NCBI GenBank assembly: GCA_005881895.1
Contig: VBCG01000154.1
Location: forward strand, 1-36,295
DNA from: Betaproteobacteria bacterium
Lineage (GTDB): Bacteria; Pseudomonadota; Gammaproteobacteria; Burkholderiales; Casimicrobiaceae
Direction of reading: 5' to 3'
Length of the DNA stretch: 36,295 bases
Numbering within the stretch: the stretch's first letter is position 1; every line of letters starts with the position of its first letter. The translations under genes were made by a program, and so were the position numbers. This document shows, piece after piece, positions 6,955 through 36,205 of this stretch. The notes under the pieces are model-generated. The model was given only the letters and a program-made list of their open reading frames with translations, was not told the origin of the DNA and ran no database searches.

Positions 6955-7116
6955 GTGGCGGAGGCGCATGCCGATTCTCCGCTTGGGGCGTCGCAAACAC
7001 TCGCCTACGGGTCCCGGTGCGGCCGGTCCGCGTCGACCCAACGCCGCGCGACGGCCGCACCACCCGTGACGGCTCGCGCGACGCACTCGCTTCGTCTCGG
7101 CATGCGCCTCCGCCAC
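6955..7116 (+). repeat. Structured inverted-repeat element, copy C
   Basis: The spacer between pcaJ and pcaI is almost entirely an element closed by a perfect 20-bp inverted repeat: GTGGCGGAGGCGCATGCCGA at 6955-6974 and its complement at 7097-7116. Inside, a 10-bp stem pairs GGTGCGGCCG (7016-7025) with CGGCCGCACC (7052-7061). Its loop holds GACCCAACGCC (7035-7045). A short GGCG/CGCC stem with an 11-base loop precedes it. The core resembles three other elements in the window at 26938-27122, 27196-27364 (opposite strand) and 35984-36205. The outer arms do not resemble those of the other copies. Confidence 0.8.
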
Positions 7117-7118
7117 GC

Positions 7119-7820
7119 TCATGCCGCCGCCCCGGGCTGCGCGACGAACTTCGCGGCCATCGGAATCTCGACGACGCGCCTCACGTAGATACCCGGCGTT
7201 ACAACCGCCTCGGGATCGAGATCGCCGAGGTTCACAACCTCGCGCACCTGCACGATTGTGCACTTCGCCGCAGCCGCCATGATGGGACCGAAATTGCGCG
7301 CAGTCTTGCGGTACACCAGGTTGCCCCATCGATCGGCGTGCTGCGCCTTGATCAATGCAAAATCCGCCTCGATCGGATATTCGAGCACATAGTTGCGACC
7401 GTTGATCTCGCGCGTCTCCTTGCCCTCCGCGAGTAACGTTCCATAACCCGTCGGCGTGAAAAACGCGCCGATCCCCGAGCCCGCGGCGCGTATCCGTTCG
7501 GCGAGATTGCCTTGCGGCACGAGCTCCAGCTCGATTTCGCCGGCGTGATAAAGGGCATCGAAGACGTACGAATCGGTCTGGCGCGGAAACGAGCAGATGA
7601 TTTTGCGTACGCGCTTCGCCTTCAGCAACGCGGCGAGACCCACTTCGCCGTTGCCCGCGTTGTTGTTCACGATCGTGAGGCCGCGCGCACCTTGATCAAT
7701 TAGCGCATCGATGAGCTCGGACGGCATGCCGGCGGTACCGAAGCCGCCAATCATCACCGTGGCGCCGTCGCCAATATCGGCGACCGCCGCGGCAGCTGTC
7801 CCGACCGTTTTATCAATCAT
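7119..7820 (-). CDS. pcaI: 3-oxoadipate CoA-transferase, alpha subunit
   Basis: This is the CoA-binding subunit of 3-oxoadipate CoA-transferase, which activates 3-oxoadipate with succinyl-CoA. The glycine-rich CoA-transferase motif MIGGFGTAGMPSELI spans residues 23-37. The 233-residue length matches PcaI. It is the first gene of the pca operon, with a sigma70-like promoter and two PcaR-like operators directly upstream. The stop codon lies two bases from the right arm of the inverted-repeat element that separates it from pcaJ. Confidence 0.95.
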   Translation of the reverse strand: MIDKTVGTAAAAVADIGDGATVMIGGFGTAGMPSELIDALIDQGARGLTIVNNNAGNGEVGLAALLKAKRVRKIICSFPRQTDSYVFDALYHAGEIELELVPQGNLAERIRAAGSGIGAFFTPTGYGTLLAEGKETREINGRNYVLEYPIEADFALIKAQHADRWGNLVYRKTARNFGPIMAAAAKCTIVQVREVVNLGDLDPEAVVTPGIYVRRVVEIPMAAKFVAQPGAAA

Positions 7821-7834
7821 CTTGGAAGCCCCTG

Positions 7835-7870
7835 TGTGCGATTACCGCACCAATGTTCGCATATCGCACA
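7835..7870. promoter_or_regulatory. Two PcaR-like operator sites before pcaI
   Basis: Two 16-base sites face opposite ways. On the minus strand 7850-7835 reads GTGCGGTAATCGCACA. On the plus strand 7855-7870 reads GTTCGCATATCGCACA. From memory, the Pseudomonas putida PcaR box is close to GTTCGATAATCGCAC; the first site differs from it at about two positions and the second at about three central ones. The sites cover the expected transcription start of the pcaI promoter. Binding here would more naturally repress than activate (inference). Confidence 0.65.
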
Positions 7871-7899
7871 GTGTAGGGCGTACGTTGGAGACAGGTCAA
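7870..7899 (-). promoter_or_regulatory. Predicted sigma70 promoter of the pca operon
   Basis: Read on the minus strand, TTGACC (7899-7894) and TACACT (7875-7870) are 18 bases apart and resemble -35 and -10 elements. Transcription would begin near 7863, inside the PcaR-like site at 7855-7870, with a leader of about 40 bases before pcaI. This gives the pca genes a promoter of their own although they lie directly downstream of aroE. Confidence 0.5.
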
Positions 7900-7948
7900 T
7901 CGCGCACGCGCAGAAAGCGTTCGGTAATCGCGCGCTTTCGTTGTCATC

Positions 7949-8761
7949 TCACGCGCTCAACGTCGCGATAACCGGACCGGTATCGGGTCGCACGCCACGC
8001 CATATCAGAAACGACTCCGCTGCTTGCGCAATCAGCATTCCCAGGCCGTCCGCACCGCGGCAAACGCCGAACGATTTCGCCGTCGCAAGAAACGGCGTCG
8101 CGCGTTCGCCGTAGACCATATCGTAGGCCAGCGTCGCCGAAGCGCAGGCGCGTTTTGACAGCGGCGGTACGTCGCCGCTCAAGCTCGCCGACGTCGCGTT
8201 GATGATGACGTCGAAGCGCTCGTCGGCGAAGTCGCCATATCCGCCGCCACGAACGTTGCCACGCGATTTCCAGCGCGCCGCGAGCGCGATGGCCTTCTCC
8301 ACGGTGCGGTTGGCAATCGCCAGCAGCGCGGGTTTCTGTTCCAGCAACGGCAGCACGACGCCGCGCGCGGCGCCGCCGGCGCCCATCAGCAAGATGCGCT
8401 TAGCGGCCAGCGGTAAGCCAAGGCGAATCGTGATGTCGGCGACGAGCCCCGCGCCATCGGTGTTGTCGCCAAGCGCTGATGCGCCGTCGAACTTGAGCGT
8501 GTTGACGGCGCCCGCGCTCTCCGCGCGATCAGTCAACGTCGTCGCGAGTGCAAACGCGTCAAGCTTGAACGGAACCGTCACGTTGAGACCGCAGCCGCCG
8601 TGCGAGCGAAAGGTCCCGACCGCCGCGGCGAATCCATCCACCGGCGCCAGGATCGCACCGTACTCGATGTCTTCCCCCGTTTGCTGCGCGAAAGCGGCAT
8701 GGATGCGCGGCGACAAGCTGTGCGCGACCGGATTTCCGATGACGGCGTAGCGGTCGGTCAC
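7949..8761 (-). CDS. aroE: Shikimate dehydrogenase
   Basis: AroE interconverts shikimate and 3-dehydroshikimate with NADP(H). The 270-residue protein has the shikimate-binding motif HSLSP (Ser15, Ser17), the catalytic Lys66 (NVTVPFK) and Asp102 (GDNTDG), and the nucleotide-binding loop MGAGGAARG at about 126-134. The start is GTG, overlapping the quiC stop as GTGA, so translation is coupled. Within this island it probably feeds shikimate into catabolism rather than serving only biosynthesis. That is inferred from context; the sequence itself looks like an ordinary AroE. Confidence 0.93.
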   Translation of the reverse strand: MTDRYAVIGNPVAHSLSPRIHAAFAQQTGEDIEYGAILAPVDGFAAAVGTFRSHGGCGLNVTVPFKLDAFALATTLTDRAESAGAVNTLKFDGASALGDNTDGAGLVADITIRLGLPLAAKRILLMGAGGAARGVVLPLLEQKPALLAIANRTVEKAIALAARWKSRGNVRGGGYGDFADERFDVIINATSASLSGDVPPLSKRACASATLAYDMVYGERATPFLATAKSFGVCRGADGLGMLIAQAAESFLIWRGVRPDTGPVIATLSA

Positions 8762-10686
8762 GGATGCGCCATCGCTGCTGAACGTTGCGCCTGCGACGCA
8801 ATGCGGGCCGGCGCATTGAGCGCGCCATAGCCGTCGTAGTCGCCGGTACGCTGGACGATCTCGAAAAAGAATCGGCCTGCGAACGGCTCCGAGTAGGCGT
8901 GAAAGTACTCGCCGCCGGAACGTTCGTAAAGAATGCTCAGTCGGCGCATGCGCGCGACGACCGACGTTGGAAGATCGAAACGCGCGAGCAGATCGTCATA
9001 GTAATTGGGCGAGATCGGGACAAAGCGCACGCCGTTCTCGATCAGCTTTTCGAGCGTCGCGAAAATGTCGTTGCAGGCGAACGCGATATGGTGAACGCCG
9101 GCGCCGCCCTGTGATGTTACGGCCCGCGCGGTCTGCGTGCTGCGGCTTTGCGAGACATTCAGCACGACGCGGACCGCGCGATTGTCACTCGCCACGCCGC
9201 AGCTGCGGATTAGACCGTAGGGATCGGAAAGCTCGAGACTGTCGCCCGGTTGCATGCCAAGCACGGCGCGATAAAACAATATCCATGTGTCGAGCGCATC
9301 GACCGGCAGCCCGATTGCGACGTGGTCGATCGACGCCAGGCCCGCGTCGACGCCTTTGAGACGCGGGCGCGCAGTCAAGTCGAAATCGATTTCATAAAGA
9401 CCGTCCGATCCCAACTCGGCGGGAACGAAATAGACGAGGCTTCCATCCGGCGCGCGGATCGCCGGAATCTTGAGCTCGTGCGGCCCGATCCGGCTGTCGA
9501 ATCGCGGGCAATTGAGCGCGGTGGCGCGGTTCAACGCTCGTATGCTGTCATCGGTTGTCAGGCTCATCGCACAGATCGAAGGGCCATGCTCGGAAAAGTG
9601 CGTCCGCGCAAACGAATCGGGCTCGGCGTTCAGCACAAGATTGATGTCGCCTTGCTGATAGAGCGAAACCTCTTTGGATCGATGGCGGCCGGCGCGCGCG
9701 AAGCCGAGCGATTCGAGGAGGCCACCGAGGGCCGTCTCGGTTTCCGTGTCGACGGCGAACTCGAGAAACGCAACGCCGTCGAGCCGCGGAGGTTGCGGCG
9801 GATCGAACAGCGCGACACGGCCAAGCGCCTGCGCTGCGGATGATTGCGGATTCGCCAAGGCGGCGCTCGCCAAACGTTGCCGCGTCTGCGATTCGAGATA
9901 CAAGAGGGACTGCATCGCGTCGATGGCGGTACGCCGGCCGGGCGCCTCGCGGAATACGTCATTGAAGATTTCGAGCGACAGCGGCCCGTTATAGCCGGCG
10001 ATCAGCACGCATTCGAGAAAGCGGGCGAGATCGAACTGGCCCTGGCCGGGAAAGCACCGGTAATGTCGGCTCCATTGCAGGACGTCCATCGCGAGCCGCG
10101 GCGCATCCGCGAGCTGCAGGAAGAATATCTTGTCACCGGGAATCTCCGCGATGCCCGCGGGATCGTCGCCGAGCGAAAGCGTGTGAAAACTGTCGAGTGC
10201 GACGCCGAGGTGCGGATGATCGGCTGCCTTCACGATTGACCACGCGTGGCTGTATCGGCTGACGTGTCGGCCCCACGCGAGCGCTTCGAACGCGATGCGG
10301 AGATTGCGACGCGCCGCGCGATCGGCGAGCGCGTGAAACTGTGCGGCGATCCGCGCATCGTCGGTCACCGCGCCCGGCGTCGGATTCGAGCACACCAGCA
10401 TCATCGGCGCGCCGAGCGTGTCCATGATGTCGAACTTGCGTTCGGCGCGGTCGAGGTTACGCCGAAACTGCTCGTCGGTTGCGGCGTCGAGATCGCGAAA
10501 CGGCTGGTAAAGATCAATGCCGAGACCGCGGTCGGCGGCCATTGCGCGCACGTCTTCGGGCGAGCCTTGAAAATGAATCAGATCGTTTTCGAACACTTCG
10601 ATCGCGTCGAAGCGCGCCGCTGCAATCGCGTCGAGTTTTTCGGAGAGCGTACCGCTCAACGATACGGTCGCGATGCACTTTCGCAT
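8758..10686 (-). CDS. quiC: 3-dehydroshikimate dehydratase fused to an HPPD-like domain
   Basis: This 642-residue protein converts 3-dehydroshikimate to protocatechuate. The N-terminal half is a xylose-isomerase-like TIM barrel with all four metal ligands in place: Glu134 (FEALAWG), Asp165 (ALDSFH), Gln191 (FLQLAD) and Glu239 (SLEIFND). The C-terminal half is a vicinal-oxygen-chelate domain like 4-hydroxyphenylpyruvate dioxygenase. It keeps a His-His-Glu set at His455, His532 or 533, and Glu609. This matches the fused QuiC type known from pseudomonads. The catalytic role of the second half is not settled. It lies between aroQ and aroE, giving the order dehydroquinate to dehydroshikimate to protocatechuate. 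Confidence 0.93.
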   Translation of the reverse strand: MRKCIATVSLSGTLSEKLDAIAAARFDAIEVFENDLIHFQGSPEDVRAMAADRGLGIDLYQPFRDLDAATDEQFRRNLDRAERKFDIMDTLGAPMMLVCSNPTPGAVTDDARIAAQFHALADRAARRNLRIAFEALAWGRHVSRYSHAWSIVKAADHPHLGVALDSFHTLSLGDDPAGIAEIPGDKIFFLQLADAPRLAMDVLQWSRHYRCFPGQGQFDLARFLECVLIAGYNGPLSLEIFNDVFREAPGRRTAIDAMQSLLYLESQTRQRLASAALANPQSSAAQALGRVALFDPPQPPRLDGVAFLEFAVDTETETALGGLLESLGFARAGRHRSKEVSLYQQGDINLVLNAEPDSFARTHFSEHGPSICAMSLTTDDSIRALNRATALNCPRFDSRIGPHELKIPAIRAPDGSLVYFVPAELGSDGLYEIDFDLTARPRLKGVDAGLASIDHVAIGLPVDALDTWILFYRAVLGMQPGDSLELSDPYGLIRSCGVASDNRAVRVVLNVSQSRSTQTARAVTSQGGAGVHHIAFACNDIFATLEKLIENGVRFVPISPNYYDDLLARFDLPTSVVARMRRLSILYERSGGEYFHAYSEPFAGRFFFEIVQRTGDYDGYGALNAPARIASQAQRSAAMAHP

Positions 10687-10692
10687 GGCGCG

Positions 10693-11148
10693 CTACTTTG
10701 CCGCGGCGATTTTCGCGAGACCGGCGATGGCCAGCGGATAACCGTGGACGCCGAAGCCGGCGATGACCGCCTTCGCGACCGGGGACAACCACGAATGGTG
10801 ACGAAACGGCTCGCGGGCATGGACGTTGGAAATATGCAGCTCGATGACGGGGACGTTGGCGCCCTTGATCGCGTCGTGCAGCGCGATCGATGTGTGCGTG
10901 AGCGCGCCGGCGTTGAATACGACACCGAGCATCGTGCCCGCAGCGCACTCGCGTCCGGCCTCATGTATCCAGTCGATCAACTGACCTTCATGATTCGACT
11001 GCCGGAAGTCGATTGCGAGCGACAAACGCGCGCCTTCGTCACGACACATCTGCTCGACGTCGGCGAGCGTTTGCGAGCCGTATACGGCCGGCTCGCGCGT
11101 GCCGAGCAGATTGAGGTTCGGACCGTTCAGGACGAGCACTTTTTTCAT
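10693..11148 (-). CDS. aroQ: Type II 3-dehydroquinate dehydratase
   Basis: AroQ interconverts 3-dehydroquinate and 3-dehydroshikimate. The 151-residue protein has the type II signature: [13 protein letters not shown] with Arg18, Tyr23, Asn79 (FNAGA), His105 (ELHISN) and Arg112 (REPFR). Type II enzymes serve both biosynthesis and quinate catabolism; the position between quiC and a Liv operon points to catabolism here. Its ATG overlaps the stop of the upstream isomerase gene (ATGA), and it ends 6 bases before quiC. Confidence 0.95.
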
Positions 11149-11960
11149 AAGGTCTCCAGGAGCCGTTGCGTCTTGGCGAGCATCTGCCGCACGCGCTCGA
11201 GCGCGGGCATCGTGGGAGTCAGTGTTCGCATCGGAATCTCCAAGCTGAGCGGCAAATCCGGCGACACCGCGCGCAGAATGCCGCGCAAATCCAAGCCGCC
11301 GTCGCCGGGCATCAGCCGCTCAGCACGCGCCTGATGCAAAAGCGTTTCAGTGTCGGTGGGCCGCTCGGCCGGCGCGTCGCAGAGCTGCATGTAGCGCAGG
11401 CGGGCGCGCGGCACGGACGCGATTTCCTCTGCACGGCTTCCGCCGCGATCGAAATGAATCGGATCGATCACGATGCCCGCGTTTTCGTGGCCGGATGCAG
11501 CGACAATCCGCGCACCTTGCGCGAAATTGCGGACGTCGGTCCATGGCATCGGCTCGAGGTTCGCGCCCATGCCGAATTCGCGGGCGAGGTCGCAAAACGC
11601 AGCGAAATTGTCCGTCAACCGGGCTTCGTCGGAATCGTTGCCCGCCAACAGGACTTCGTGCGCGCCCAGACGCGCGCCCGTCTCCAGCGCCGCGCGATAG
11701 TCTGCAACGTTCGTATCGGGTTTCAAGCGAAAGAGCTCGATATCGAGCACCGGAATGCCGGTGTCGGCGAGTCGACGCGCCGTCTCGCGCACGAGCGGCG
11801 TGTCGCCGACCATCGGATGCTGAACTTCCTCCGCAGTCGGCGGCAGCAAGCGCAAACCGATGGTTGCGAATCCCGCCTTCGCGGCGCACGACACCATTTC
11901 GGGCGGCGAAAGCTCCAGCACAGTTAATGCGGCAAGTCCGATCGGGTGCGCCATGATCAT
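11145..11960 (-). CDS. TIM-barrel sugar phosphate isomerase/epimerase family protein
   Basis: This 271-residue xylose-isomerase-like TIM barrel is related to the first half of QuiC and to IolE. The four presumed metal ligands are all present: Glu136 (NLEPMPW), Asp166 (VIDPIHF), Gln192 (YMQLCD) and Glu241 (SLEIP), so it should be active. It could be a second dehydroshikimate dehydratase or act on a related cyclic acid; the sequence does not decide. The ATG at 11960 overlaps the livF stop (ATGA), and the stop overlaps the aroQ start. A second ATG six bases in (11954) is also possible. Confidence 0.88.
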
Positions 11961-12691
11961 GCAGTCTTCACGTGCCCGCCGAGGAACAAGCGGTTGAGAT
12001 TCGGATCGTGCAGAAGCTCGGAGGCCGGACGATCGAGCGCGAGCCGGCCCATCTCGAGCACGAGCGCGCGGTTCGCGTACTTGAGCGCCGTGCGCACATT
12101 TTGCTCGACCATCAGCACGGTCGTGCCGCCGTCGGCGAGCGTGCGCAGAAGCGTCATCACTTCCTGAACGAGCTTCGGCGACAATCCGATTGATGGCTCA
12201 TCGATCAGGATCACCCGCGGCCGCAACAGCATCGCGCGGGCGATCTCGAGCTGTTTCTGCTCACCGCCCGACATCGTCGATGCCTGGTTGTCGATCCGCT
12301 CCTTGATCCGCGGAAAACGCGTGAGCGCCTCTTCGATGCGCCCGCCCAGCTCGCCGCGCGGCAGCGTGATGCCGCCGAGCTCGAGATTGTGACGCACCGA
12401 CAGCGACCCAAAAAGATTTCGACCTTGCGGGACAAACGCGATGCCCTCGGCCAGGAGCTCGCGTGGCGTCCTGCCGTTGATCCGCTTGCCCTCGAAGCGG
12501 ATTTCACCAGCGCGAGGAACCAGCATGCCAAACAGCGTCTTCAAGACGGTCGATTTGCCTGCGCCGTTGGGACCGATCAGCAAGGTGATTTCCGCTTTGC
12601 GGGCGTCGAGTGTCGTCTCGTTCAGAATCGTCAAACTCGGCGAATAGCCGGCGACGACCTTGTCGAACTCGATGATCTTTTCGTTCGCCAT
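11957..12691 (-). CDS. livF: Liv-type ABC transporter ATPase
   Basis: This is the second ATPase of a branched-chain-amino-acid-type (HAAT) importer. Walker A GPNGAGKST is at 40-48, the signature SGGEQ at 141-145 and Walker B with DEP at 164-166. The 244-residue length is typical of LivF. Operon context suggests the substrate is a hydroaromatic or aromatic acid rather than an amino acid; several aromatic-acid uptake systems belong to this family. The gene is 21 bases after livG and is coupled to the isomerase gene downstream. Confidence 0.93.
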   Translation of the reverse strand: MANEKIIEFDKVVAGYSPSLTILNETTLDARKAEITLLIGPNGAGKSTVLKTLFGMLVPRAGEIRFEGKRINGRTPRELLAEGIAFVPQGRNLFGSLSVRHNLELGGITLPRGELGGRIEEALTRFPRIKERIDNQASTMSGGEQKQLEIARAMLLRPRVILIDEPSIGLSPKLVQEVMTLLRTLADGGTTVLMVEQNVRTALKYANRALVLEMGRLALDRPASELLHDPNLNRLFLGGHVKTA

Positions 12692-12712
12692 GTCTGCCCC
12701 TCAGTTGCCCAC

Positions 12713-13456
12713 TCAGTTCCCTAGATACGCTTCGAGCACCGCGCGATTGCCTTGCACCTGCGCCGGTGGCCCTTCCGCGAGCACTTTGCCTTCGACCATG
12801 CAGATCACGTGCGGGCAGAGCTTCATGATGAAGTCCATGTTGTGCTCGATGACGACGAAGCTGCCGCCCTGCGTCTTGTTGAGCTCCACCAGGCGATCGT
12901 GCAGCTGATCGACGAGACTAGGATTCACGCCCGCGCAGGGTTCGTCGAGCAGCACGAGCCGCGGCGCGGCCATGAAGGCCATCGCGATGTCGATCAGCTT
13001 TTGCTGGCCGTACGAGAGACTTCCCGCGGGCAGGTGCGCGACATGCTTCAAGCGGAACAGCTCGATCATCTGGTCCGCATGGTCGCCGAGCCCCGCATCG
13101 GGCTTCGCGAATAGCCGCCCGCCGAGCGTGCCTTTGAATTCCTGCGCGGCGGCGATCAGGTTATCGCGTACCGACAGCTTGACGAACACCTGCAAGGTTT
13201 GGAACGTGCGTCCGACGCCTCGCCGCGACAGCTCGAGCGGCGACATGCCGGTGATGTCCTCGCCGCAGAATTCGACGTGGCCCGACGTCGGCGCGATCTG
13301 CCCGAGGATGCTGTTGAAAAGCGTCGTCTTGCCCGAGCCGTTCGGCCCGATGACGCCGACGATCTCGCCCGGACCCACGTCGAAGCTGACGCCGTCGACG
13401 GCCTTGATCGCGCCGTACGCCTTGCGCACGTCCTTTACTTCGAGGAAAGGTGTCAC
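12713..13456 (-). CDS. livG: Liv-type ABC transporter ATPase
   Basis: This is the first ATPase of the HAAT importer. It has Walker A GPNGSGKTT (37-45), signature LSYGQQ (147-152) and Walker B ending in LLDEP (169-173). The 247-residue length fits LivG. The start is GTG, overlapping the livM stop as GTGA, with a strong GGAGG inside the end of livM. It functions at the inner face of the membrane with LivF, LivM and LivH. Confidence 0.94.
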   Translation of the reverse strand: MTPFLEVKDVRKAYGAIKAVDGVSFDVGPGEIVGVIGPNGSGKTTLFNSILGQIAPTSGHVEFCGEDITGMSPLELSRRGVGRTFQTLQVFVKLSVRDNLIAAAQEFKGTLGGRLFAKPDAGLGDHADQMIELFRLKHVAHLPAGSLSYGQQKLIDIAMAFMAAPRLVLLDEPCAGVNPSLVDQLHDRLVELNKTQGGSFVVIEHNMDFIMKLCPHVICMVEGKVLAEGPPAQVQGNRAVLEAYLGN

Positions 13457-14415
13457 TTGGCCACCTCCTTCGATTTGAAGCGATCACCGATCGAAAGAAT
13501 GCCGCCCGGCAACCAGATCATCAGCGCGACGACGGCAACGCCGAACACCGCCAGATACCACGTCTGCATGAACTTGAGCCACGAAACGTTGGTCGAGCGC
13601 AAGAGCTCCGGCAGCAGAATGATGATGATTGTGCCGATCACCGGCCCGAAAAAGCGTCCGGAGCCGCCGACGATGACGGCGAGCAGCATCGTCAGCGATG
13701 TCGAAAAATGGAACGGACCCGGCTCGATGAATTCGACCAGCGACGCGTAGTAGACGCCGCCGATGCCCGCGCACGCAGCGCCAATCGCAAACGCGAGCAG
13801 CGTATAGGCGGTGATATTGACGCCGAGACTTTCCGCGCGGATTGGATTGTCGCGAAGGGCCGCGAACGCGCGTCCCCAGGGCGAGCGCAGCAACCACCAT
13901 AAGAAGAACGCGAGAATGATCAACGACACGAAGGTGAAAAAGAAAAATGCGAGCGGACCGTCAAATGAAACTCCGAACAGCGAAGGCCGCGGAATCCCGG
14001 AAATCCCGAACGTGCCGCCCGTCAATTTCTCTTCGTTACGCATGACCAGGTAGACGAGCACGTTGAACCCGAGTGTCGCGAACGCGAGGTAATGGTGCTG
14101 CACCCGCAACGCGGGGAATCCGAGCGCGAGACCGACGACGAAACACGCAATCGCCGATATCGGGAGCACGAGCAGGAACGGTACGCCCGCCTTCAGCGCG
14201 ATCGCGGCGACGTACGCGCCAATGCCGAAGAACGCCGCCTGGCCGAGCGACATCTGTCCTGCGTAGCCGACGGTCAAATTGAGGCCGAACGTTGCCATCA
14301 GGTACACACAATAGAGCGTCAGCAGATAGACGTCGCTTCGTTTGGCGAACGATGCCACCACGGCGACCACCACGAGCGATGCCACCAGAATCCCGGTCTT
14401 CATCTGCGCGTTCAT
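13453..14415 (-). CDS. livM: Liv-type ABC transporter permease
   Basis: This integral membrane permease has about 320 residues and eight to ten hydrophobic segments. It contains the typical block VGYAGQMSLGQAAFFGIGAY near the N-terminus. The open frame runs back to 15108 through livH, but the LivM family start is the ATG at 14415 (MNAQMKTGI), which overlaps the livH stop as ATGA. It pairs with LivH to form the channel and is coupled to livG downstream. Confidence 0.93.
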   Translation of the reverse strand: MNAQMKTGILVASLVVVAVVASFAKRSDVYLLTLYCVYLMATFGLNLTVGYAGQMSLGQAAFFGIGAYVAAIALKAGVPFLLVLPISAIACFVVGLALGFPALRVQHHYLAFATLGFNVLVYLVMRNEEKLTGGTFGISGIPRPSLFGVSFDGPLAFFFFTFVSLIILAFFLWWLLRSPWGRAFAALRDNPIRAESLGVNITAYTLLAFAIGAACAGIGGVYYASLVEFIEPGPFHFSTSLTMLLAVIVGGSGRFFGPVIGTIIIILLPELLRSTNVSWLKFMQTWYLAVFGVAVVALMIWLPGGILSIGDRFKSKEVAK

Positions 14416-26937: not shown

Positions 26938-27122
26938 AAGGTCGCGGTCAGAGCGCGTCTCTGCGCTCGGATGTCCGCAAACGTGGTTTCCTACGGGGCG
27001 CATCCGACCAATGGGAGGATGCGCGCGAGCTGCTTCGCTCGCCAACCCAAGGCTTCGCTCGCAGCGCCACCCGTGACGGAAACCGATGACACTCGCGCTC
27101 GCCGCGCCCTGCCCGCGACCTT
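26938..27122 (+). repeat. Structured inverted-repeat element, copy A
   Basis: Outer arms of 20 bp, 26938-26957 and 27103-27122, pair at 18 of 20 positions. Inside is a hairpin GCGCATCC/GGATGCGC (26998-27005 and 27017-27024) with the 11-base loop GACCAATGGGA. Next comes a weaker GCTGC/GCAGC stem whose loop holds AACCCAAGG (27044-27052). The left and central parts match copy B at 36010-36090 closely. The element lies in the non-coding stretch 26847-27436, where I find no protein-coding gene. Confidence 0.75.
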
Positions 27123-27195
27123 GGGAAGCCTCGGTGCAGACGCGCTACGCGACTAACCTGAGAGATTGCACGCTTCGTACCGGTACCGCTTGTCG

Positions 27196-27364
27196 AAGCG
27201 GGGTGAGTCACTGCGCGAGGGGCGCCTGTGGCGCAGCCGGCGAAGCGGGCGGCGCGGCCGAGTCGGCGGCGTTGGGTCGACGCTCGCGGCCGCGCCGGGA
27301 TCTCCCGCTTTGACGACGTGGGTGCACCACGTCGAAGCCCTGAGCGCAGTGGCTCACACCGCTT
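27196..27364 (-). repeat. Structured inverted-repeat element, copy D
   Basis: This copy faces the opposite way to copy A, 73 bases away. Its outer arms (27196-27216 and 27344-27364) pair at 19 of 21 positions. Reading on the minus strand, a GACGTGG/CCACGTC hairpin (27315-27333) comes first. A perfect GGCGCGGCCG/CGGCCGCGCC stem (27251-27260 and 27287-27296) follows, with GACCCAACGCC in its loop (minus strand of 27268-27278). The order of parts is the same as in copies A and B. Confidence 0.78.
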
Positions 27365-27384
27365 GGAAACTAGCGCGAAATGCG

Positions 27385-28914: not shown

Positions 28915-29427
28915 TTACTCGATATGCAACGGTTCGGCGTCGTGCTTCGGTTCGACGCGGCGGCCGCGCACCTCGAGCTGGAACTCATCAATCATTGCAA
29001 GGGCGAAGATGACCGTGCCAAGCGCCATTCCCGTCTCGGGCAGCCACAGCGGTGTCGCGTCGTTGCCGGTCGAGATGTCGTGCAGCGTAAAAGAGAGCCA
29101 CGCCAGGCGAACGCTGAACCACGCCAATACGATTGCAAGGAGAACGGCGATGCCGATCGCGATCAATTCGAGCAATTTGTGCGCGTGTCCCTCGAGCAGC
29201 CGCGACACGACGGAGACGCGGATATGCTCACCGCGCTTCAGCGTATGCGCGAGCGCGAGAAAACCGCTGCCCGCCATCAAGTAACCGGCATACGCGTCGG
29301 AGCCGCGCACCTGGAAGTCCAGCAGGCGCCCGAAAATCCCGAGGAGGATCATCATCAGCGTGCCTATCAACAACAACGCCGCCAGATAAGCGGCGGCGGC
29401 GTAGAGAGCGTCGAGCGCGCGGCGCAC
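28915..29427 (-). CDS. dctQ: TRAP transporter small permease
   Basis: This is the DctQ-type small membrane subunit, 170 residues with four hydrophobic segments. It contains the family pattern FLALAHTLKRGEHIRV near 56-71. It partners DctM in the inner membrane. The gene starts 12 bases after dctP and ends 10 bases before dctM. Confidence 0.92.
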   Translation of the reverse strand: MRRALDALYAAAAYLAALLLIGTLMMILLGIFGRLLDFQVRGSDAYAGYLMAGSGFLALAHTLKRGEHIRVSVVSRLLEGHAHKLLELIAIGIAVLLAIVLAWFSVRLAWLSFTLHDISTGNDATPLWLPETGMALGTVIFALAMIDEFQLEVRGRRVEPKHDAEPLHIE

Positions 29428-29439
29428 GGCGATCGACGA

Positions 29440-30429
29440 TCACATCTTCTTGTAAGCGTCCACGATGGCCTGGCCCTCAGGCCCGGCCTGCTTCACCCAT
29501 TCCGAAGTCATCGTCTCGCCGACCTTTTTGAGATCCGCGGTGAACGTCGGCGACGGCGGCGCAACCGTCATTCCGTTCTTTTTAAGCTGATCGAGATACC
29601 ACTTCGCTTTTTCTTCGGAGAGCTTCCAACCGCGCGATTCCGCCGCGGCGGCGGCCTTCAACACCGCGTCCTGCTGCGCCTTGTCGAGCGCGTCGAAGGC
29701 CTTCTGATTGACGAACACGACGTTCTTCGGCACCCACGCCTGCGCATCGTAGAAGTATTTGACCTGCTCCCAAGCCTTGGAGTCATAGCCGGTGGCGGCG
29801 GACGTCATGTTGGCGTTGACGGCGCCCGTCGCCATCGCCTGCGCCAATTCCGCCGCCTGGATCGTGACGGGCTGCGCGCCGGCGAGCTCCGCAATCCGCG
29901 ACGTGGCCGGATTGTAGGTGCGCATCTTCAGGCCCTTCATGTCGGCGATCGTATTGAGGGGCTTGTTGCTGTAGATGCCTTGCGGCGGCCACGGCACGGC
30001 ATAGAGCACTTTCAAGCCCTGCTTCGCGAAATGCTCGTCGAGCGCCTTGCGCGACGCTTTCCACAGCTTCTCGGCGTCGGCGTAGCTGGTGGCCAGAAAA
30101 GGCACCGAATCGAGGCCGAACAACGGATCCTCGTTGGCATAGGCGGAAATGAGGATTTCACCGATCTGCGCTTGATTGCTCTGCACTGCGCGCTTAATTT
30201 CATTCGCCTTGAATAGCGACGCATTGTTATGCACGGTGATCTTGAGCTTTCCGCCCGTCGCTGCGTCCAGATCGGCCACGAACTGCGCGATGTTTTCCGT
30301 ATGGTAGTTGCTGGGCGGATACGCAGTGGGCATGTCCCACTTCGTTTGAGCGCTCGCGAGACCGCACAGCGCGAACGCCAAAATGGCAACGGCTGCGCGC
30401 GCCGCGAGACGCAAACGATTCTGCGACAT
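29440..30429 (-). CDS. dctP: TRAP transporter substrate-binding protein
   Basis: This DctP-type periplasmic binding protein has 329 residues. A signal peptide ends at about residue 27 (LASA before QTKWDMP). The conserved arginine that normally binds the substrate carboxylate is in LKMRTYNPATSR. The frame is open to 30624, but the ATG at 30429 has GAGGAG upstream and the expected signal peptide. The ligand is an organic acid. The adjacent divergent 5-oxoprolinase genes make 5-oxoproline a possibility, not more. Confidence 0.93.
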   Translation of the reverse strand: MSQNRLRLAARAAVAILAFALCGLASAQTKWDMPTAYPPSNYHTENIAQFVADLDAATGGKLKITVHNNASLFKANEIKRAVQSNQAQIGEILISAYANEDPLFGLDSVPFLATSYADAEKLWKASRKALDEHFAKQGLKVLYAVPWPPQGIYSNKPLNTIADMKGLKMRTYNPATSRIAELAGAQPVTIQAAELAQAMATGAVNANMTSAATGYDSKAWEQVKYFYDAQAWVPKNVVFVNQKAFDALDKAQQDAVLKAAAAAESRGWKLSEEKAKWYLDQLKKNGMTVAPPSPTFTADLKKVGETMTSEWVKQAGPEGQAIVDAYKKM

Positions 30430-30556
30430 GGCAAATCTCCTCGACACGAAAGCGGACGATTCCGGGAAAGGCGGTTTGAGCATTTGAGACCGCAATGGCC
30501 GAGTGGCCGTTGCGCGCGACGGATCGAACTCTGCACCTGCGCTTTCCGCGTTGCAA

Positions 30557-30584
30557 ATGCTACAAGCTATAAATAATATGTCAA
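30557..30584 (-). promoter_or_regulatory. Sigma70 promoter of dctPQM
   Basis: On the minus strand a consensus TTGACA (30584-30579) is followed after 16 bases by TAGCAT (30562-30557), within an A/T-rich stretch unusual for this DNA. Transcription would start near 30550, about 120 bases before dctP. Confidence 0.6.
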
Positions 30585-30630
30585 GAAACTGCTGACACTT
30601 TACGTTTAGGCTTGTTTTTAACATTTGTAG

Positions 30631-30695
30631 GTCAGACTCGACTTTCGTCGCGATCTCCGGCTTGTCCGCTCATGCGAATGAAAGTCGAGTCTGAC
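30631..30695. repeat. REP-like hairpin at the 5' end of pxpB
   Basis: GTCAGACTCGACTTTC (30631-30646) pairs perfectly with GAAAGTCGAGTCTGAC (30680-30695), with a 33-base loop. Flanking GTAG and CCTAC extend the stem with one bulged base. This GTCAGACTCGACTTT type of palindrome resembles REP sequences mobilised by REP-associated tyrosine transposases in proteobacteria. No such transposase is encoded in the window. The right arm overlaps the possible start codons of pxpB. Confidence 0.75.
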
Positions 30696-31400
30696 CCTAC
30701 TTTCCAGCCGATGGGCGATCGTTGCCTCATCATCGAATTCGAATCACGCGTCGATCCCGAGATCAATGCGCGTGTGCGCTCCGTCGCCCGGCACTTGCTC
30801 ACCCATCCGATCGAAGGCGTCGTCGACATCGTTCCCGCATTTACGACGGTGGCGGTCCACTACCGTCCCGAAGCCGTGCGCGATGGTCCTCCGAGCGAAT
30901 CGCCGTACCGGCGTTTGTGCCGCTCGATCGAGCGCATCCTCGCCCAAGGCATCGCGCGTACGGACGTCGGCGCGCGCGTCGTCGAAGTGCCGGTCTGCTA
31001 CGGCGGCGAGTTCGGGCCCGATCTCGACGAAGTCGCCGTTCAATGCCATCTGACGCCACAGCAAGTCATCGCTCTGCACGCTGCTTCGCCGCACCAGGTG
31101 TATATGCTTGGCTTTGCGCCCGGATTCCCCTACCTCGGCGGTCTCGATTCGCGGCTCGAGACCTCCAGACGTTCGACACCTCGCACCAAAGTTCCGGCGG
31201 GCAGCGTCGCCATCGCGCGCGAACAAAGCGCAATTTATTCGATCGAGACTCCCGGCGGGTGGAACATCCTCGGCCGCACGCCGCTTAAGTTGTTCACGCC
31301 CGAAACCGTCCCGCCTTGCCTGCTGCAGCCCGGCGACAACGTTCGCTTCGTGCCCATCTCGGCGGAGCAGTTCAACGCCATGCAGCAAAGTCGTGCATGA
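30678..31400 (+). CDS. pxpB: 5-oxoprolinase subunit B (KipI/allophanate hydrolase subunit 1 family)
   Basis: PxpB works with PxpC and PxpA in ATP-dependent cleavage of 5-oxoproline to glutamate. The family N-terminus GDRCLIIEFESRVDPEINAR and the block HQVYMLGFAPGFPYLGGLD are present. Starts are possible at 30672, 30678 and 30711. The family sequence begins a few residues before the Met at 30711, so I choose 30678, but then residues 2-8 are encoded by the arm of a REP-like hairpin. None of the starts has a good ribosome-binding site. The stop overlaps pxpC (ATGA). Confidence 0.88.
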   Translation: MKVESDPTFQPMGDRCLIIEFESRVDPEINARVRSVARHLLTHPIEGVVDIVPAFTTVAVHYRPEAVRDGPPSESPYRRLCRSIERILAQGIARTDVGARVVEVPVCYGGEFGPDLDEVAVQCHLTPQQVIALHAASPHQVYMLGFAPGFPYLGGLDSRLETSRRSTPRTKVPAGSVAIAREQSAIYSIETPGGWNILGRTPLKLFTPETVPPCLLQPGDNVRFVPISAEQFNAMQQSRA

Positions 31401-32407
31401 GCGTTCACGTCATCAAACCCGGCGCCTTGTCGACGTTGCAGGACCTGGGACGTTTCGGTTATCAACGCTACGGCGTCATTGTGGACGGCGTAATGGATGA
31501 GTGGTCGCATCGTGCGGCCAACATTCTCGTCGGCAATCCCGAATCGGAAGCTACGCTGGAAATGACGCTCGTCGGACCGACTCTCAGATTCGACGATACG
31601 ACTTTGATCGCCATCTGCGGCGCCGATTTGTCGCCGCGCATCGGCGAGCGCGAGGTTCCGATGGACAGACCCGTGCTATTGCGGGCGGATACGCAGCTCG
31701 AATTCGGCCGCCGACGAACGGGCTGCCGAGCCTACCTCGCCATCAACGGGGGGTACGATGTCGCGCCGGTGATGGAAAGCAAAAGTACTTATCTGCGCGG
31801 TGGTTTTGGCGGTTTTCAGGGACGCGCGCTGCGAAAGGACGACACGATCGCGATCGGGCGCAGCGATGCCACGAACCCCTATCGATCGCTGTTGCGGATG
31901 CTCAGTGCGAACGACGATCCGTTTTGCGCACCGCCGTTTGCGCTCAGGCCGCGAAGCGTACCCGACGCGACCGCCGCGCAATCGGTGCGCGTTGTCTCGG
32001 GCCCGCAATGGCAGCGATTCCCGGACGCCGCGCAACGAGAATTCCTCGATTCGGAATTCGCCATTACGCCGAGCTCTGACCGGATGGGATATCGGCTGCA
32101 AGGCGCTAAACTTGCACCGCGCGAGGCAATCGAAATGATCTCGGAAGGCGTCTCGTTCGGCACCATCCAAGTTCCGCCCGACGGCAATCCGATTATTCTG
32201 ATGGCAGACTGTCAAACGACCGGCGGTTATCCGAAAATCGCGCAGGTCGCGAGCGTCGATCTCCCGCGTCTCGCACAGATGATGCCGGGGCAAACCGTGC
32301 GCTTCGAATTGATCTCGCTCGACGAGGCGCAGCGACTTTATCTTGCGCGTCAACATGACTTTGCGCAGGTATTGCAGTCGGTTTCGCAGCTGCAGCAGGA
32401 ATCGTGA
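31397..32407 (+). CDS. pxpC: 5-oxoprolinase subunit C (biotin-dependent carboxyltransferase family)
   Basis: This 336-residue protein is of the KipA/allophanate hydrolase subunit 2 family. The N-terminal motif PGALSTLQDLGRFGYQRYGV is typical. The frame opens upstream at 31316, but the ATG at 31397 overlaps the pxpB stop and is the natural start. It overlaps pxpA as well. The family is often labelled biotin-dependent carboxyltransferase because of homology to urea carboxylase domains. A biotinyl domain gene lies two genes downstream. Confidence 0.92.
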   Translation: MSVHVIKPGALSTLQDLGRFGYQRYGVIVDGVMDEWSHRAANILVGNPESEATLEMTLVGPTLRFDDTTLIAICGADLSPRIGEREVPMDRPVLLRADTQLEFGRRRTGCRAYLAINGGYDVAPVMESKSTYLRGGFGGFQGRALRKDDTIAIGRSDATNPYRSLLRMLSANDDPFCAPPFALRPRSVPDATAAQSVRVVSGPQWQRFPDAAQREFLDSEFAITPSSDRMGYRLQGAKLAPREAIEMISEGVSFGTIQVPPDGNPIILMADCQTTGGYPKIAQVASVDLPRLAQMMPGQTVRFELISLDEAQRLYLARQHDFAQVLQSVSQLQQES

Positions 32408-33171
32408 TGGCGCGTATCGATCTCAATTGCGACATGGGCGAGAGCTTCGGCGCCTATACGATAGGCAACGACATCGCCATTCTCGACTTCGTCAATTCGG
32501 CCAATATTGCCTGCGGCTTTCACGCCGGCGATCCGCCGACGATCCACAAAACAGTCGAGGCGGCGCTGGCAAAAGGCGTTGCAGTCGGTGCGCATCCGGG
32601 TTTTCCCGATCTCCAGGGCTTCGGACGGCGATCGATGGCGGTGAGCGCGAGCGAAGCCTACGACATGGTCATCTATCAGATCGGCGCCGTCGCCGCGTTC
32701 GCGCGGGCGTTAGGCGGACGGCTCTCCCATGTCAAGGCGCACGGGGCGCTCTACAACACGGCGGCGAAAGATCAACGGCTGGCCAACGCCATCGCCAAGG
32801 CCGTGCACGATTTCGATCCTCGATTGATTATGTATGGTCTTGCCGGCAGCGCCATGATCGAAGCTGCCGAGGATGTCGGGCTGCGCGCCGCCAACGAAGT
32901 GTTCGCTGATCGCACCTACCAGGATGACGGCTCGCTCACGCCGCGAAGCCAGTCGAACGCGATGATCGAGGACGAGGAGACATCGGTCGCGCAGGTCAAG
33001 CGCATGGTGACCGAAGGCATCGTGCGTTCGGTGAACGGCAACGACGTTCGCGTTCGCGCCGACACGCTGTGCATTCACGGCGACCAACCCAACGCGCTGG
33101 CCTTCGCCAAACGGCTGAGGACGGAGCTTGAACGTGCCGGCGTCGAGATCAAGGCGCTATCCACGACGTAG
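32404..33171 (+). CDS. pxpA: 5-oxoprolinase subunit A (LamB/YcsF family)
   Basis: This 255-residue LamB/YcsF protein is the third 5-oxoprolinase component. The N-terminal motif DLNCDMGESFGAY and the blocks ANIACGFHAGDP and VKAHGALYN are diagnostic. The start is GTG at 32404, overlapping the pxpC stop (GTGA), or the ATG directly after it at 32407. The order pxpB-C-A with overlapping codons indicates one translated unit. Confidence 0.94.
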   Translation: MMARIDLNCDMGESFGAYTIGNDIAILDFVNSANIACGFHAGDPPTIHKTVEAALAKGVAVGAHPGFPDLQGFGRRSMAVSASEAYDMVIYQIGAVAAFARALGGRLSHVKAHGALYNTAAKDQRLANAIAKAVHDFDPRLIMYGLAGSAMIEAAEDVGLRAANEVFADRTYQDDGSLTPRSQSNAMIEDEETSVAQVKRMVTEGIVRSVNGNDVRVRADTLCIHGDQPNALAFAKRLRTELERAGVEIKALSTT

Positions 33172-33180
33172 CGGATACCG

Positions 33181-33405
33181 ATGACCGAGATAGGCGTAGA
33201 AACCGAGGCCGCGGGTATAGTCTCGAGGATCGAGCACGGTGAAGGACAGCACGTCGCTCGCGACGAGCCGATCGTGTTCGTCGAAATCATGAAGATGGAG
33301 ATCCCCGTTGTGGCGCCCGCGGAAGGCAAGATCATCAAGCTGCTCGTCGCAAAGGGCGATGCGGTCACCGAGGGCCAGCGAATCGCGATCCTGGAAACGC
33401 CGTGA
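33181..33405 (+). CDS. Free-standing biotinyl (BCCP-like) domain
   Basis: This 74-residue protein consists only of a biotinyl/lipoyl domain. The biotinylation motif EIMKME gives Lys38 as the attachment site, followed by the usual second half (VVAPAEGKI, GDAVTEGQ, ILE). It starts 9 bases after pxpA, so it belongs to the operon. It should be biotinylated by BirA. No biotin carboxylase gene is present here, so its partner enzyme is unknown; PxpC is the obvious candidate. Confidence 0.85.
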   Translation: MTEIGVETEAAGIVSRIEHGEGQHVARDEPIVFVEIMKMEIPVVAPAEGKIIKLLVAKGDAVTEGQRIAILETP

Positions 33406-33413
33406 CGTCGCGG

Positions 33414-33998
33414 TCAGAGCGAGGTCGCGGCGCGCGCGGCTTGATCGTAGAGGCCCGATAGCGTCCGGAGAAAGCGCGCCAATTCGCCCAGCTCGAGATT
33501 TTCCGAATCGTCTGCACGGAGACTCGAAACGAGGCAGGCCTCGCGTATCTCGCGGTAACGTTGAATGTAATCCTGGCCCTTGCTCGTCGTGAAGAATACG
33601 ACTTCCTTGCCGCGCTTCTCCGATTTGATGACACCGAGCGAAACCAACTTCTTGAGCGAATACGAGACGACGTGCGTATCCTCGATATTGAGCATGAAGC
33701 TGATGTCGCCGAGCTTCTTTTCGCGCGCACGATGATTGACGTGGTGCAGCAGCAGCACGTCGAGCGTCGTCAAGTCCTTGATGCCGGCCGCGGCCATGCA
33801 ACGCACGACCCAGCGATTGAAGGCGTGGCCGGCGATGATCAAGCCGAACTCGAACTCGGACAATTCCCCGCTCTTCTCCGACACAAGGTGTGCCGAGGAG
33901 ACGAGGAGCTCGGGCGCTGGGGATCGAATGCGCGCCGCGCGCCGGCTCTCCGTTTTCGCCAACGGCTTGGTCGTGCGGGATCGCGGTTGATCGGCCAT
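33414..33998 (-). CDS. MarR-type winged-helix regulator
   Basis: This DNA-binding protein has about 194 residues. A winged helix spans about residues 80-150 (TTLDVLLLHHVNHR, LNIEDTHVVSYSLKKLVSLGVI, then the wing KRGKEVVFFTTSKG), preceded by a basic tail rich in Arg and Ser. The frame is open to 34079, but the ATG at 33998 fits better and avoids running into the divergent gene. It ends 9 bases from the convergent biotinyl-domain gene and may control the pxp/TRAP locus (inference). Confidence 0.85.
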   Translation of the reverse strand: MADQPRSRTTKPLAKTESRRAARIRSPAPELLVSSAHLVSEKSGELSEFEFGLIIAGHAFNRWVVRCMAAAGIKDLTTLDVLLLHHVNHRAREKKLGDISFMLNIEDTHVVSYSLKKLVSLGVIKSEKRGKEVVFFTTSKGQDYIQRYREIREACLVSSLRADDSENLELGELARFLRTLSGLYDQAARAATSL

Positions 33999-34025
33999 GA
34001 GCGGTGACGTCGATAGATTGCCGAC

Positions 34026-34814
34026 ATGGTATTTAATGGTGTCGGCGTTTGCAACGTGACCACGGGCGAACGCGCGCAATTTGTGACGCCGGTACGCCTT
34101 GCGGCGCCGGCGGGTACGACTCTGCTGTGGTGGTGCTCGCTCGCGTACGCGCCGGGCAACGCCGATCTCACCGATTGGCTATCCGATAATGAGCGCGCAC
34201 GCATGCAGCGTTTCGGCCATGAAACGTTGCGCACGCGTTATTTGATGGGACGGGCGTCGCTTCGTTGGGTGCTCGCACAAACGATGGGCGTTACGCCCGA
34301 AGCGGTGCCGATCGAACGCGGTCCGCGCGGCCGTCCGCAACTCCCAGGCATGATGGACGTCGATTTCAACGTGTCGCACACCGCGGAGGTCGCATTGATC
34401 GGGGTCTCACGCGAAGCGCGCATTGGCGTCGACATCGAGCGCGCGGACCGCATGATCCAGTCATCAGGACTCGCGCGCAGGATTCTGACCGACCGCGAGC
34501 GCGCAGCGCTGCCGGCGAACGATGACGCAATCCGCCGACGAATTCTTCGGCTGTGGACGTGTAAGGAGGCGCTTGCGAAGGCGACCGGCGATGCGATGTC
34601 GGCGCCGTTTGGGCGGCTCGATATCGCCACCGACCCGGCGTTGAAGCTTGTCGATGGGCCACCGCCTTACGACCCGCGCGATTTCGAGCTGTTTGCCGCA
34701 GGGGTGCCCGATGGATATCTTGCGACTGTTGCGCTATGGCGTCGTTACAACGCCGGCTCGAAATTAACCGCGACCCGATTGCACGCGGAACGCGAAGCGC
34801 AGCGGAAGGCGTAG
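34026..34814 (+). CDS. 4'-phosphopantetheinyl transferase (Sfp type)
   Basis: This enzyme transfers the phosphopantetheine arm of CoA to a carrier protein. At up to 262 residues it has the Sfp-type motifs FNVSHT (114-119), GVDIE with metal-binding Asp136 and Glu138, and WTCKEA (177-182). The true start may be downstream of the ATG at 34026, for example the GTG at 34056, since the first 25 residues do not look conserved. Only 27 bases separate it from the divergent MarR start. No polyketide or peptide synthetase is present in the window. Confidence 0.9.
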   Translation: MVFNGVGVCNVTTGERAQFVTPVRLAAPAGTTLLWWCSLAYAPGNADLTDWLSDNERARMQRFGHETLRTRYLMGRASLRWVLAQTMGVTPEAVPIERGPRGRPQLPGMMDVDFNVSHTAEVALIGVSREARIGVDIERADRMIQSSGLARRILTDRERAALPANDDAIRRRILRLWTCKEALAKATGDAMSAPFGRLDIATDPALKLVDGPPPYDPRDFELFAAGVPDGYLATVALWRRYNAGSKLTATRLHAEREAQRKA

Positions 34815-34864
34815 AGTCGCTCCTGTAATTCGCGCCGAGGCCCTGCGGCGCTCATGGAGGACAC

Positions 34865-34987
34865 GTGAAAAGAATCGTTTGCCTCGCGCTCGTGTTGCTG
34901 TTGACTGCGTGCGTGCCGATCGGTGTTCGGTGGCAGAACCTGCCGTATAGCGCCAACGCTGCGGCTGCTTCAGTAGGTCGCGTCTAA
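34865..34987 (+). CDS. Small predicted lipoprotein, 40 residues
   Basis: A GTG at 34865 preceded by GGAGGA opens a 40-codon frame reading MKRIVCLALVLLLTAC. This is a complete lipoprotein signal with Cys16 after the lipobox LLTA, followed by only 24 residues. The strong ribosome-binding site and perfect signal make it more than a chance frame. Its stop codon overlaps that of the convergent acyltransferase gene by four bases (34984-34987). I recognise no family. Confidence 0.65.
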   Translation: MKRIVCLALVLLLTACVPIGVRWQNLPYSANAAAASVGRV

Positions 34988-35877
34988 GGAGCGGCCGCAG
35001 GCTTCGCCGTCGGCTCCGCTGAAACGGTCGGGCGTTTGATCTTCCATTTCTTTTGCAGCCACAGCCAATCCCACGGACTGTCGCGAATGTCGCGTTCCAG
35101 GTTCCGCGCGTATCGCTCGACGATCTGAATGTCTTCAACCTCATCGTACGGCGGTTCCGCAATGGTGGATAGATGCACGGAATAGTAGCCGCGGCCAACG
35201 CGGCGCATCTTGACGTACAGCACCTTGGCGTCGAGAAATTTCGCGATTTTGCCCGCCCCGACGAAAAACGCCGTGTCCTGATTGAGGAAGCGCGTCCAAT
35301 GGCGCGGGTCGTTCTTGTGCTTCGGCGTTTGATCGGCGATCAACGCATAGGCCCGGACCTGCTCGGCGCGGCTCAGTAGATCGTAGATGAACTCGTTGCG
35401 GGGAATGAGCCGGCTTCCGAAGCGGCATCGCGCGTCTCGCAGAAACGCGTCGAGTGCAGCCACACGCTGCGGTTGGTAAACGACGTCGATCTCGATCCCG
35501 AAGTGCACGCCGGCGGCAAGCAGCAGCCACTCCCAGTTCCCATAGTGGGCGGTCAACAAGACGACCGACTGCTTCGCATCGAAGCAGCGCTGTACGAGCT
35601 CCGGGTTTTCGATCGCGACACGCCGCTTGATCGCGGCCGCGCTCGCACCGAATCCCCAGAACGCTTCGACGAGCGTGTCGGCCAGATTGCGGTACGAGCG
35701 CCGGACGATGACTGCGCGCTCGTTCGCGCTTTTGTCCGGGAACGCGTTGCCGACATCGCGCTCGCAGTCGTCGCGCCGCCAGCGCATCACGTGATACGCG
35801 ACGAAGTACATCAGAGCGCTCCACGGATACAGCAGCCGGAGCGGTATGCGGGTCAGCAGTCGAAGCAGGAATTGCAC
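34984..35877 (-). CDS. Lipid A late acyltransferase (LpxL/HtrB family)
   Basis: This 297-residue inner membrane acyltransferase has an N-terminal hydrophobic anchor (about 12-30) and the catalytic HX4E motif HYGNWE (His111, Glu116). The block IADQTPKHKNDP is typical. It adds a secondary acyl chain to lipid A or a related lipid. The start is GTG without a clear ribosome-binding site, so it may begin elsewhere nearby. The C-terminal tail is Pro/Ala-rich. LpxL and LpxM cannot be told apart from sequence alone. Confidence 0.88.
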   Translation of the reverse strand: MQFLLRLLTRIPLRLLYPWSALMYFVAYHVMRWRRDDCERDVGNAFPDKSANERAVIVRRSYRNLADTLVEAFWGFGASAAAIKRRVAIENPELVQRCFDAKQSVVLLTAHYGNWEWLLLAAGVHFGIEIDVVYQPQRVAALDAFLRDARCRFGSRLIPRNEFIYDLLSRAEQVRAYALIADQTPKHKNDPRHWTRFLNQDTAFFVGAGKIAKFLDAKVLYVKMRRVGRGYYSVHLSTIAEPPYDEVEDIQIVERYARNLERDIRDSPWDWLWLQKKWKIKRPTVSAEPTAKPAAAP

Positions 35878-35983
35878 GGAGGCGAATGGCGGGCCGTACG
35901 CGCGATCATTTAGCGGCGCGGCGTCGGTTCGGGACTATAGCAATTCCGCTGCGTGATCCCACGAGGGCGCTACGTGTCTCCAC

Positions 35984-36205
35984 GCCACGAAGCGGGGCGG
36001 GCATGGCACCTCTCTGCGCTCGGATGTCCGCAAACGTCTTCCTGCGGGGCGTATCCGACCAATGGGAGGATGCGCGCGAGCGGCCGTGGGCTCGACCCTG
36101 TCTTCTCCGAGCAGAGGACCCAACGCCGCCAACACGGCCGCGCCACCCGCTACGGAAGCCGCGTCCACTCGCGCTCGCCGCGCCCTGCCGGCCGCGCTTC
36201 GTGGC
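35984..36205 (+). repeat. Structured inverted-repeat element, copy B
   Basis: Outer arms 35984-36003 and 36186-36205 pair at 18 of 20 positions. Inside is the hairpin GCGTATCC/GGATGCGC (36049-36056 and 36068-36075) with the same 11-base loop as copy A. It is followed by a perfect GCGGCCGTG/CACGGCCGC stem (36080-36088 and 36133-36141) whose loop ends in GACCCAACGCC (36117-36127). The rest of 35878-36295 shows no credible gene; an open frame through the repeat is a shadow. Confidence 0.78.

Follow-up and report, generated by a model that had tools for sequence, protein, structure and literature searches.

Rhizobium RIME and similar repeats are intergenic mosaics of palindromes with a length of at least 100 bp, and we know of no copy-private complementary arms in repeats of this type. 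Repetitive extragenic palindromes (REPs) and REPINs are described, in the accessible portions of two reports, as imperfect palindromes of 20-40 nt belonging to GTAG or CGTC types (PMC3116915, PMC3733652). The window analysed here, the whole stretch of 36,295 nt formed by positions 1 to 36,295 of contig VBCG01000154.1 from a Betaproteobacteria bacterium of the Casimicrobiaceae (assembly GCA_005881895.1), carries four elements, W1 to W4, of a family of long hairpin modules whose layout is best read as REPIN-like without the family being a REP. The pairing constraint in these hairpins most likely acts on DNA and not on a folded RNA, and we favour, with some reserve, a reading of the family as a non-autonomous mobile DNA-hairpin doublet whose arms are renewed by fold-back copying or maintained through hairpin-dependent mobility.

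Like REPINs, as far as the accessible text of PMC3116915 and PMC3733652 describes them, the elements are dispersed imperfect palindromes that form inverted doublets with a spacer, are non-autonomous and are unevenly spread among relatives. They differ from REPINs in the size of their modules (150-222 nt, not 20-40), in having two module types, named A and B, and arms that are private to each copy in several genomes, in outer ends that by eye differ between copies, so that there is no fixed GTAG or CGTC tag, and in a distribution that is not tracked by the presence of RAYT, a Y1 transposase. The hairpin and double-hairpin elements of mitochondria are likewise dispersed, sometimes double, scattered and possibly mobile, but in the available part of their description the stems are conserved and the loops vary, whereas here the outer stems vary and the core is conserved (PMC2800124). 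Stem evolution by template switching, which yields quasipalindromes, is presented in the accessible sections of PMC8794818 and PMC7202029 as a mutation process, not as a repeat family. RIME repeats occur in other hosts, and the comparison with them is one of general description, not of sequence. Rfam gave no match at the gathering score in the window and three matches at E<=10 outside the elements, and no named family was recognised in the open-licence literature of PubMed Central; the earlier note, which knew of no named family with this pattern, is not contradicted by these two sources, although a name may exist elsewhere.

The fold of every module is a single hairpin, the conserved core of which comprises a 5' bulge around GCAAAC, the motif GGGTxCCCGG or close variants, and CCACCCG. 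The stem structure was assembled manually from the folds of single modules and replaced an RNAalifold consensus that yielded only seven pairs on mixed A and B cores (W1 shortened; C50A, C126B1, C42B and W4 excluded). Across 47 distinct cores from 39 sources (matches at E<=0.001), in an alignment that was fitted to the model and so leans in favour of pairing, 88.7% of the cells are paired and 189 are two-sided, against 65 +/- 6 in shuffles, none of 500 shuffles reaching this value. Strong pairwise covariation, for which the earlier note had proposed a test, is therefore present, and in an unfitted alignment of eight cores two-sided changes also number 21 against 7.8 +/- 2.2 in shuffles.

Covariation is usually taken as the mark of a functional RNA; the family shows it strongly, yet its pair chemistry points to DNA. 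RNase P RNA from the same genus served as control and was represented by 18 of 20 loci, without L240 and L259. One-sided to two-sided changes stand at 5:148 in stems 1-5 and 21:189 in all stems, compared with 49:117 in RNase P RNA, while G-U to A-C cells stand at 6:15 and 38:38, compared with 93:7; in outer arms of score 24 or more, G-U to A-C is 27:35. The counts for stems 1-5 were made after dropping seven pairs at or near a loop or bulge, and a cut retaining the bulge pair gave 6:22. Stem pairs differ between copies by Watson-Crick two-sided changes without G-U preference and with hardly any G-U intermediates. An RNA on the given strand would favour G-U and one on the other strand A-C, and because neither comes near the bias of RNase P RNA, the constraint is most likely on the DNA.

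Selection for a folded RNA of a regulatory, stabilising or small RNA kind, with mobility as an incidental property, would account for the strong covariation and for the conserved unpaired bulges. It is nevertheless an unlikely explanation, since G-U does not exceed A-C as it does in RNase P RNA, the facing doublets place both orientations at one site, one module (G034_C101a/G377_C40) is oriented oppositely in two species, and Rfam holds no match. Among the options raised by the earlier note, selection for a folded RNA accordingly loses ground to single-stranded DNA or a mechanism of copying, which the pair chemistry favours. The family offers a natural test case for separating RNA selection from DNA hairpin processes, with a simple yardstick in the comparison of G-U with A-C mismatches, for which a genuine RNA from the same genus serves as control.

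Copies in the source genome were located by DNA searches and by R1, a covariance model built from eight of the 15 full A-type modules (six A modules with an extra inner hairpin, one with a duplication and all B modules were left out). In the 4.29 Mb assembly R1 gave 29 core matches at E<=1, two of them partial, and 27 at E<=0.01. The two module types were recognised by reading the copies: type A has the arms GGCAGCGGGCAGGGCGCG/CGCGCCCTGCCCGCTGCC and type B the arms TCGAAGCGGGGTGAGCCGCTGCGC/GCGCAGCGGCTCACCCCGCTTCGA. By eye, 19 of 26 scored modules have shared type A or B arms, and the other seven are A variants (W2, C94, C248), mixed (W4), private (W1, C242) or truncated (C88B). W3 matches the type B arms at 21/24 and 22/24 positions; W2 matches type A at 14/14 in its 3' arm and departs from it in its two outer arms by changes that match each other (GGCAGC/GCTGCC to GGTCGC/GCGACC); the arms of W4 resemble both types, matching at 10/11 and 12/14 positions for A and at 13/15 and 9/10 for B. 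W1 shares only 9/10 stretches with A or B and is the sole fully private element among the four.

The covariance-model search suggested for this genome and its relatives found carriers, at E<=0.01, in 9 of 41 genomes, namely the source, seven congeners and G034, which belongs to another family of the same order; within the genus 8 of 22 genomes are carriers, and copy number among congeners ranges from 0 to 27. G377, of the genus of G034, is a further carrier. An order-wide search (R2), in which nine candidates were scored per listed genome and absence is therefore weak, matched 3 of 399 genomes. A pattern scan of named genomes gave 39 stretches, with 13 R1 matches at E<0.001 spread over 10 loci, all in metagenome-assembled genomes (MAGs) titled Burkholderiales, Proteobacteria or Betaproteobacteria, and added the Betaproteobacteria MAG BP_23 to the carriers; the remaining 29 stretches, one of which (L136) is from a carrier genome, had no R1 match below E 0.14, and viral contigs had no match to the same pattern. 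A weak R1 match in G020 (L176:3178-3274, E 0.01) was set aside as it looks like chance, the stretch reading like coding sequence.

Within- and between-copy arm pairing was scored for 58 elements, the copies examined being 7 of 16 in G018, 4 of 10 in G005, 4 of 8 in G011, 4 of 7 in G016, 3 of 6 in G034, 4 of 4 in G010, 3 of 4 in G021 and 1 of 1 in G007. In G018 the within-copy score has a median of 64 (range 26-80) against a between-copy maximum of 27, with pairing from 13/13 up to 48/52 positions. The within-copy minimum is 45 in G010 and 37 in G021, against a between-copy maximum of 20 in both, and some arm motifs are common to several copies in G005, G011 and G016. A second list of 62 elements, with G377 added and C88B (truncated arm) and C247A (boundary offset) dropped, contained 61 with sufficient flank for a shuffle test, and arm pairing reached p<=0.01 in 54 of these. 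The claim of the earlier note that arms are unrelated between copies holds in G018, G010 and G021, and only in part in the source genome, where W1 is private but most copies share their arms, the very finding it had named as counter-evidence. When compared to miniature inverted-repeat transposable elements (MITEs), the family has ends that are shared within classes A and B in the source genome and private in G018, G010 and G021.

Neighbouring modules were searched in 53 sources with A and B profiles, B rows and W4 being excluded from the A profile. All 23 pairs found are convergent, with none divergent or in tandem, and judged by the best profile, 18 combine A with B and five A with A; solitary modules also occur. 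Doublets of A with B exist in the source genus, in G034/G377 and in BP_23, so that the mixed doublet is either older than these lineages or has passed from one to another. By eye, the spacer looks conserved among doublets of the source genome and not across genomes.

Comparison of filled and empty sites was possible at W1. The element is absent from 12 congeners, whose flank matches are 16-114 bp apart, and R1 had no match at the site in the 12 loci searched that span it. The W1 module, both arms included, looks like a net insertion, and the absence of its arms and core from congeners speaks against the derivation of one arm from old flank, or of the two from an old palindrome. It is very improbable that the core was inserted into pre-existing palindromes such as terminators, the arms being old target sequence, even though REP dimers within palindromes are on record in the accessible part of PMC3733652. 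In G020, the closest congener and the one covered by the palindrome search (17-114 bp separate the flanks in the other 11), 16 bp separate the flank matches and the site has no strong palindrome, the inverted pair around it being weak (70% over 20 nt, with 86 nt between its halves); near-identical modules with their arms also occur in different surroundings (G377_C83/C40, 95% over 205 nt). Copying of flanking DNA in inverted form, another option of the earlier note, was not borne out at this site, where both arms appear new relative to congeners. The empty site of the W2/W3 doublet was unreadable, the flank match being confined to the side of the DctM gene in the seven congeners searched.

Six sites are filled in two species each. 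At the G005_C330/G016_C351 site the B half is missing in G005. G034_C101a and G377_C40 have collinear flanks (82% and 74%) with the module in opposite orientation (87% over 137 nt; L086:1471-1605 versus L225), which corresponds either to an in-place inversion or to two insertions. Near-identical doublets (C71/C59, 94% over 533 bp) are found in different surroundings in G377. Beside one orthologous hairpin site (L156 versus L105), G018 has an extra stretch that reads by eye like an ATPase gene and is absent in G010.

As to the origin of the arms, 55 of the 62 listed elements had an arm score of 24 or more and were used in a flank-repeat test. The 5' arm is directly repeated in the left flank of 10 of 54 elements (p<=0.02 each; about one expected) and the 3' arm in the right flank of 2 of 55, while inverted matches in the flanks were found for 1 of 54 5' arms and 0 of 55 3' arms. 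Local copying of arm sequence seems to occur, because of this excess of 5' arms repeated to the left, and the outward repeats could be a trace of slippage or template switching at the base of the hairpin. Template switching can produce perfect stems and two-sided changes in a single event, according to the accessible sections of PMC8794818 and PMC7202029. Tandem arrays hold some of the flank-repeated arms (G018_C185a, G007_C5). Matched two-sided changes in place were noted by eye once in the core of G016_C361/G011_C42 and once in an arm of G010_C32/G018_C41; in the core stems of a more distant orthologous pair, the fifth examined, there are four two-sided swaps and no other change. Non-orthologous copies show 1987 two-sided swaps and 1939 other changes (650 pairs with 1-8 changed stem pairs).

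These numbers also bear on a less probable but still plausible explanation, in which the unit is moved by an enzyme that depends on the hairpin and the stems stay paired through selection for its recognition alone, with no arm copying. The ratio of 1987 to 1939 is what mutation plus selection predicts, and the conserved core with its one-sided bulges, the fixed convergent layout and the variation in copy number fit such an enzyme as well. By itself, however, it does not account for the unrelated near-perfect arms of 25-50 nt in G018 or G010 and leaves the outward 5' repeats unexplained, and no enzyme was found. In the favoured reading, that of a mobile DNA-hairpin doublet, the typical unit would be two long imperfect hairpin modules that face each other across a spacer, mostly A against B and sometimes A against A. 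The hairpin would matter as single-stranded or extruded DNA, the core may be the part recognised during mobilisation, and the outer arms would either be written anew through fold-back (template-switch) copying or be under selection for complementarity alone; in both cases they could be private to each copy yet self-matching. A stronger version, that mobilisation retains the core only and that fresh self-complementary arms are written by fold-back copying of local sequence, is unlikely. If arms are indeed written anew, this would be an additional mode of insertion, and if they are written at the site, a form of transposition with ends generated locally and not carried along.

Several observations weigh against the doublet reading. 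The structure derives from the same sequences in which changes were counted, and cells are non-independent events; the structure used for RNase P came from a prediction on the RNase P alignment itself, a procedure that favours standard pairs. Pair types in the unfitted alignment of eight number 14 and do not exceed the shuffles (16.0), and as A-C exceeds G-U in stems 1-5 (15 versus 6), an RNA of the opposite strand is disfavoured less strongly. Arms are shared in G034, with a median pairing of 21 within and 23 between copies, 7 of the 61 elements tested pair their arms weakly (p>0.01), and C88B, excluded from these 61, is without an intact arm pair. In four close orthologous pairs the core stems show no two-sided Watson-Crick swap and six other changes, and over all stems one two-sided change (other than a Watson-Crick swap) and eight one-sided, against four and three in the fifth pair; these small numbers do not support rapid in-place correction. 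In G016_C361/G011_C42 the 5' arm has changed and the 3' arm has not. Finally, no transposase was identified and no excision seen, and no target-site duplication was established in flanks that were only glanced at and showed nothing consistent.

Y1_Tnp was the sole enzyme family tested. Mobilisation by a RAYT acting on REPIN-like elements would agree with the inverted doublets, as known for REPINs from the accessible part of PMC3116915, and with the single Y1_Tnp gene of the source genome, which is RAYT-like (L080:1120-1905). It is hardly credible given the size of the modules, the lack of any R1 match in 3.3 kb around that gene, and the draft assemblies of the genus, in which a Y1_Tnp match is absent from 6 of 8 carriers and present in 8 of 14 non-carriers. 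The sequence AGGGTCAGACTCC occurs twice at the 3' end of the RAYT-like gene.

The four elements of the window were confirmed where the earlier note had placed them, all with a common core, and each is a single interrupted hairpin of ca. 160-220 nt with paired outer arms (Table 1).

Table 1. Hairpin modules and doublet spacer in the window
Feature	Positions	Strand	Arms and core
W1, solitary A-type module	6955-7116	+	arms 6955-6974/7097-7116, 20/20 paired; core 6986-7086
W2, A-type module of doublet	26938-27122	+	arms 26938-26957/27103-27122, 18/20 paired
Central spacer of W2/W3 doublet	27123-27192	none	
W3, B-type module facing W2	27193-27367	-	arms 27193-27223/27337-27367, 81% of 31 nt
W4, A-type module with mixed A-like/B-like outer arms	35984-36205	+	arms 35984-36007/36182-36205, 88% of 24 nt

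The best local pairing between the 60-nt stretches flanking the core scores 40, 30, 33 and 33 for W1 to W4, respectively, against shuffle means of 13-15, and was reached in 0 of 2000 shuffles for each element, in line with the self-pairing of arms within each copy that had been claimed. Folded as DNA, the elements have z-scores of -7.35, -3.74, -7.29 and -2.62; W1, W2 and W3 beat 200 of 200 shuffles and W4 beats 197, three folding as well. W1 is flanked by two CoA-transferase genes (PF01144), W2/W3 lies between a gene resembling SMP-30/gluconolactonase and a DctM transporter gene, and W4 adjoins a lipid A acyltransferase gene near the contig end, which comes 90 nt beyond the element so that any partner module is out of sight. 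Integron attC sites end in RYYYAAC and GTTRRRY boxes, and such boxes were not seen by eye on the ends of W1 to W4; many copies have an ACCCAAC in their apical loop.

At the position of the GGGTACCC bulge, six A modules of the source genome carry a further short hairpin, GGCGCATCCGACCAATGGGAGGATGCGC or a near variant, as a hairpin inside a hairpin: W2 (26997-27024), W4 (36048-36075), C247A, C126A2, C88A and C181A (loci L002, L003, L004 and L007 in addition to the window). Contigs C11 and C137 start within a module and C181 has an N run beside one (L013, L042 and L007), so that some copies were probably lost to assembly gaps. Finally, three modules, C50A, C126B1 and C42B (L008, L009 and L037), contain duplications in their 3' half, a sign of instability.

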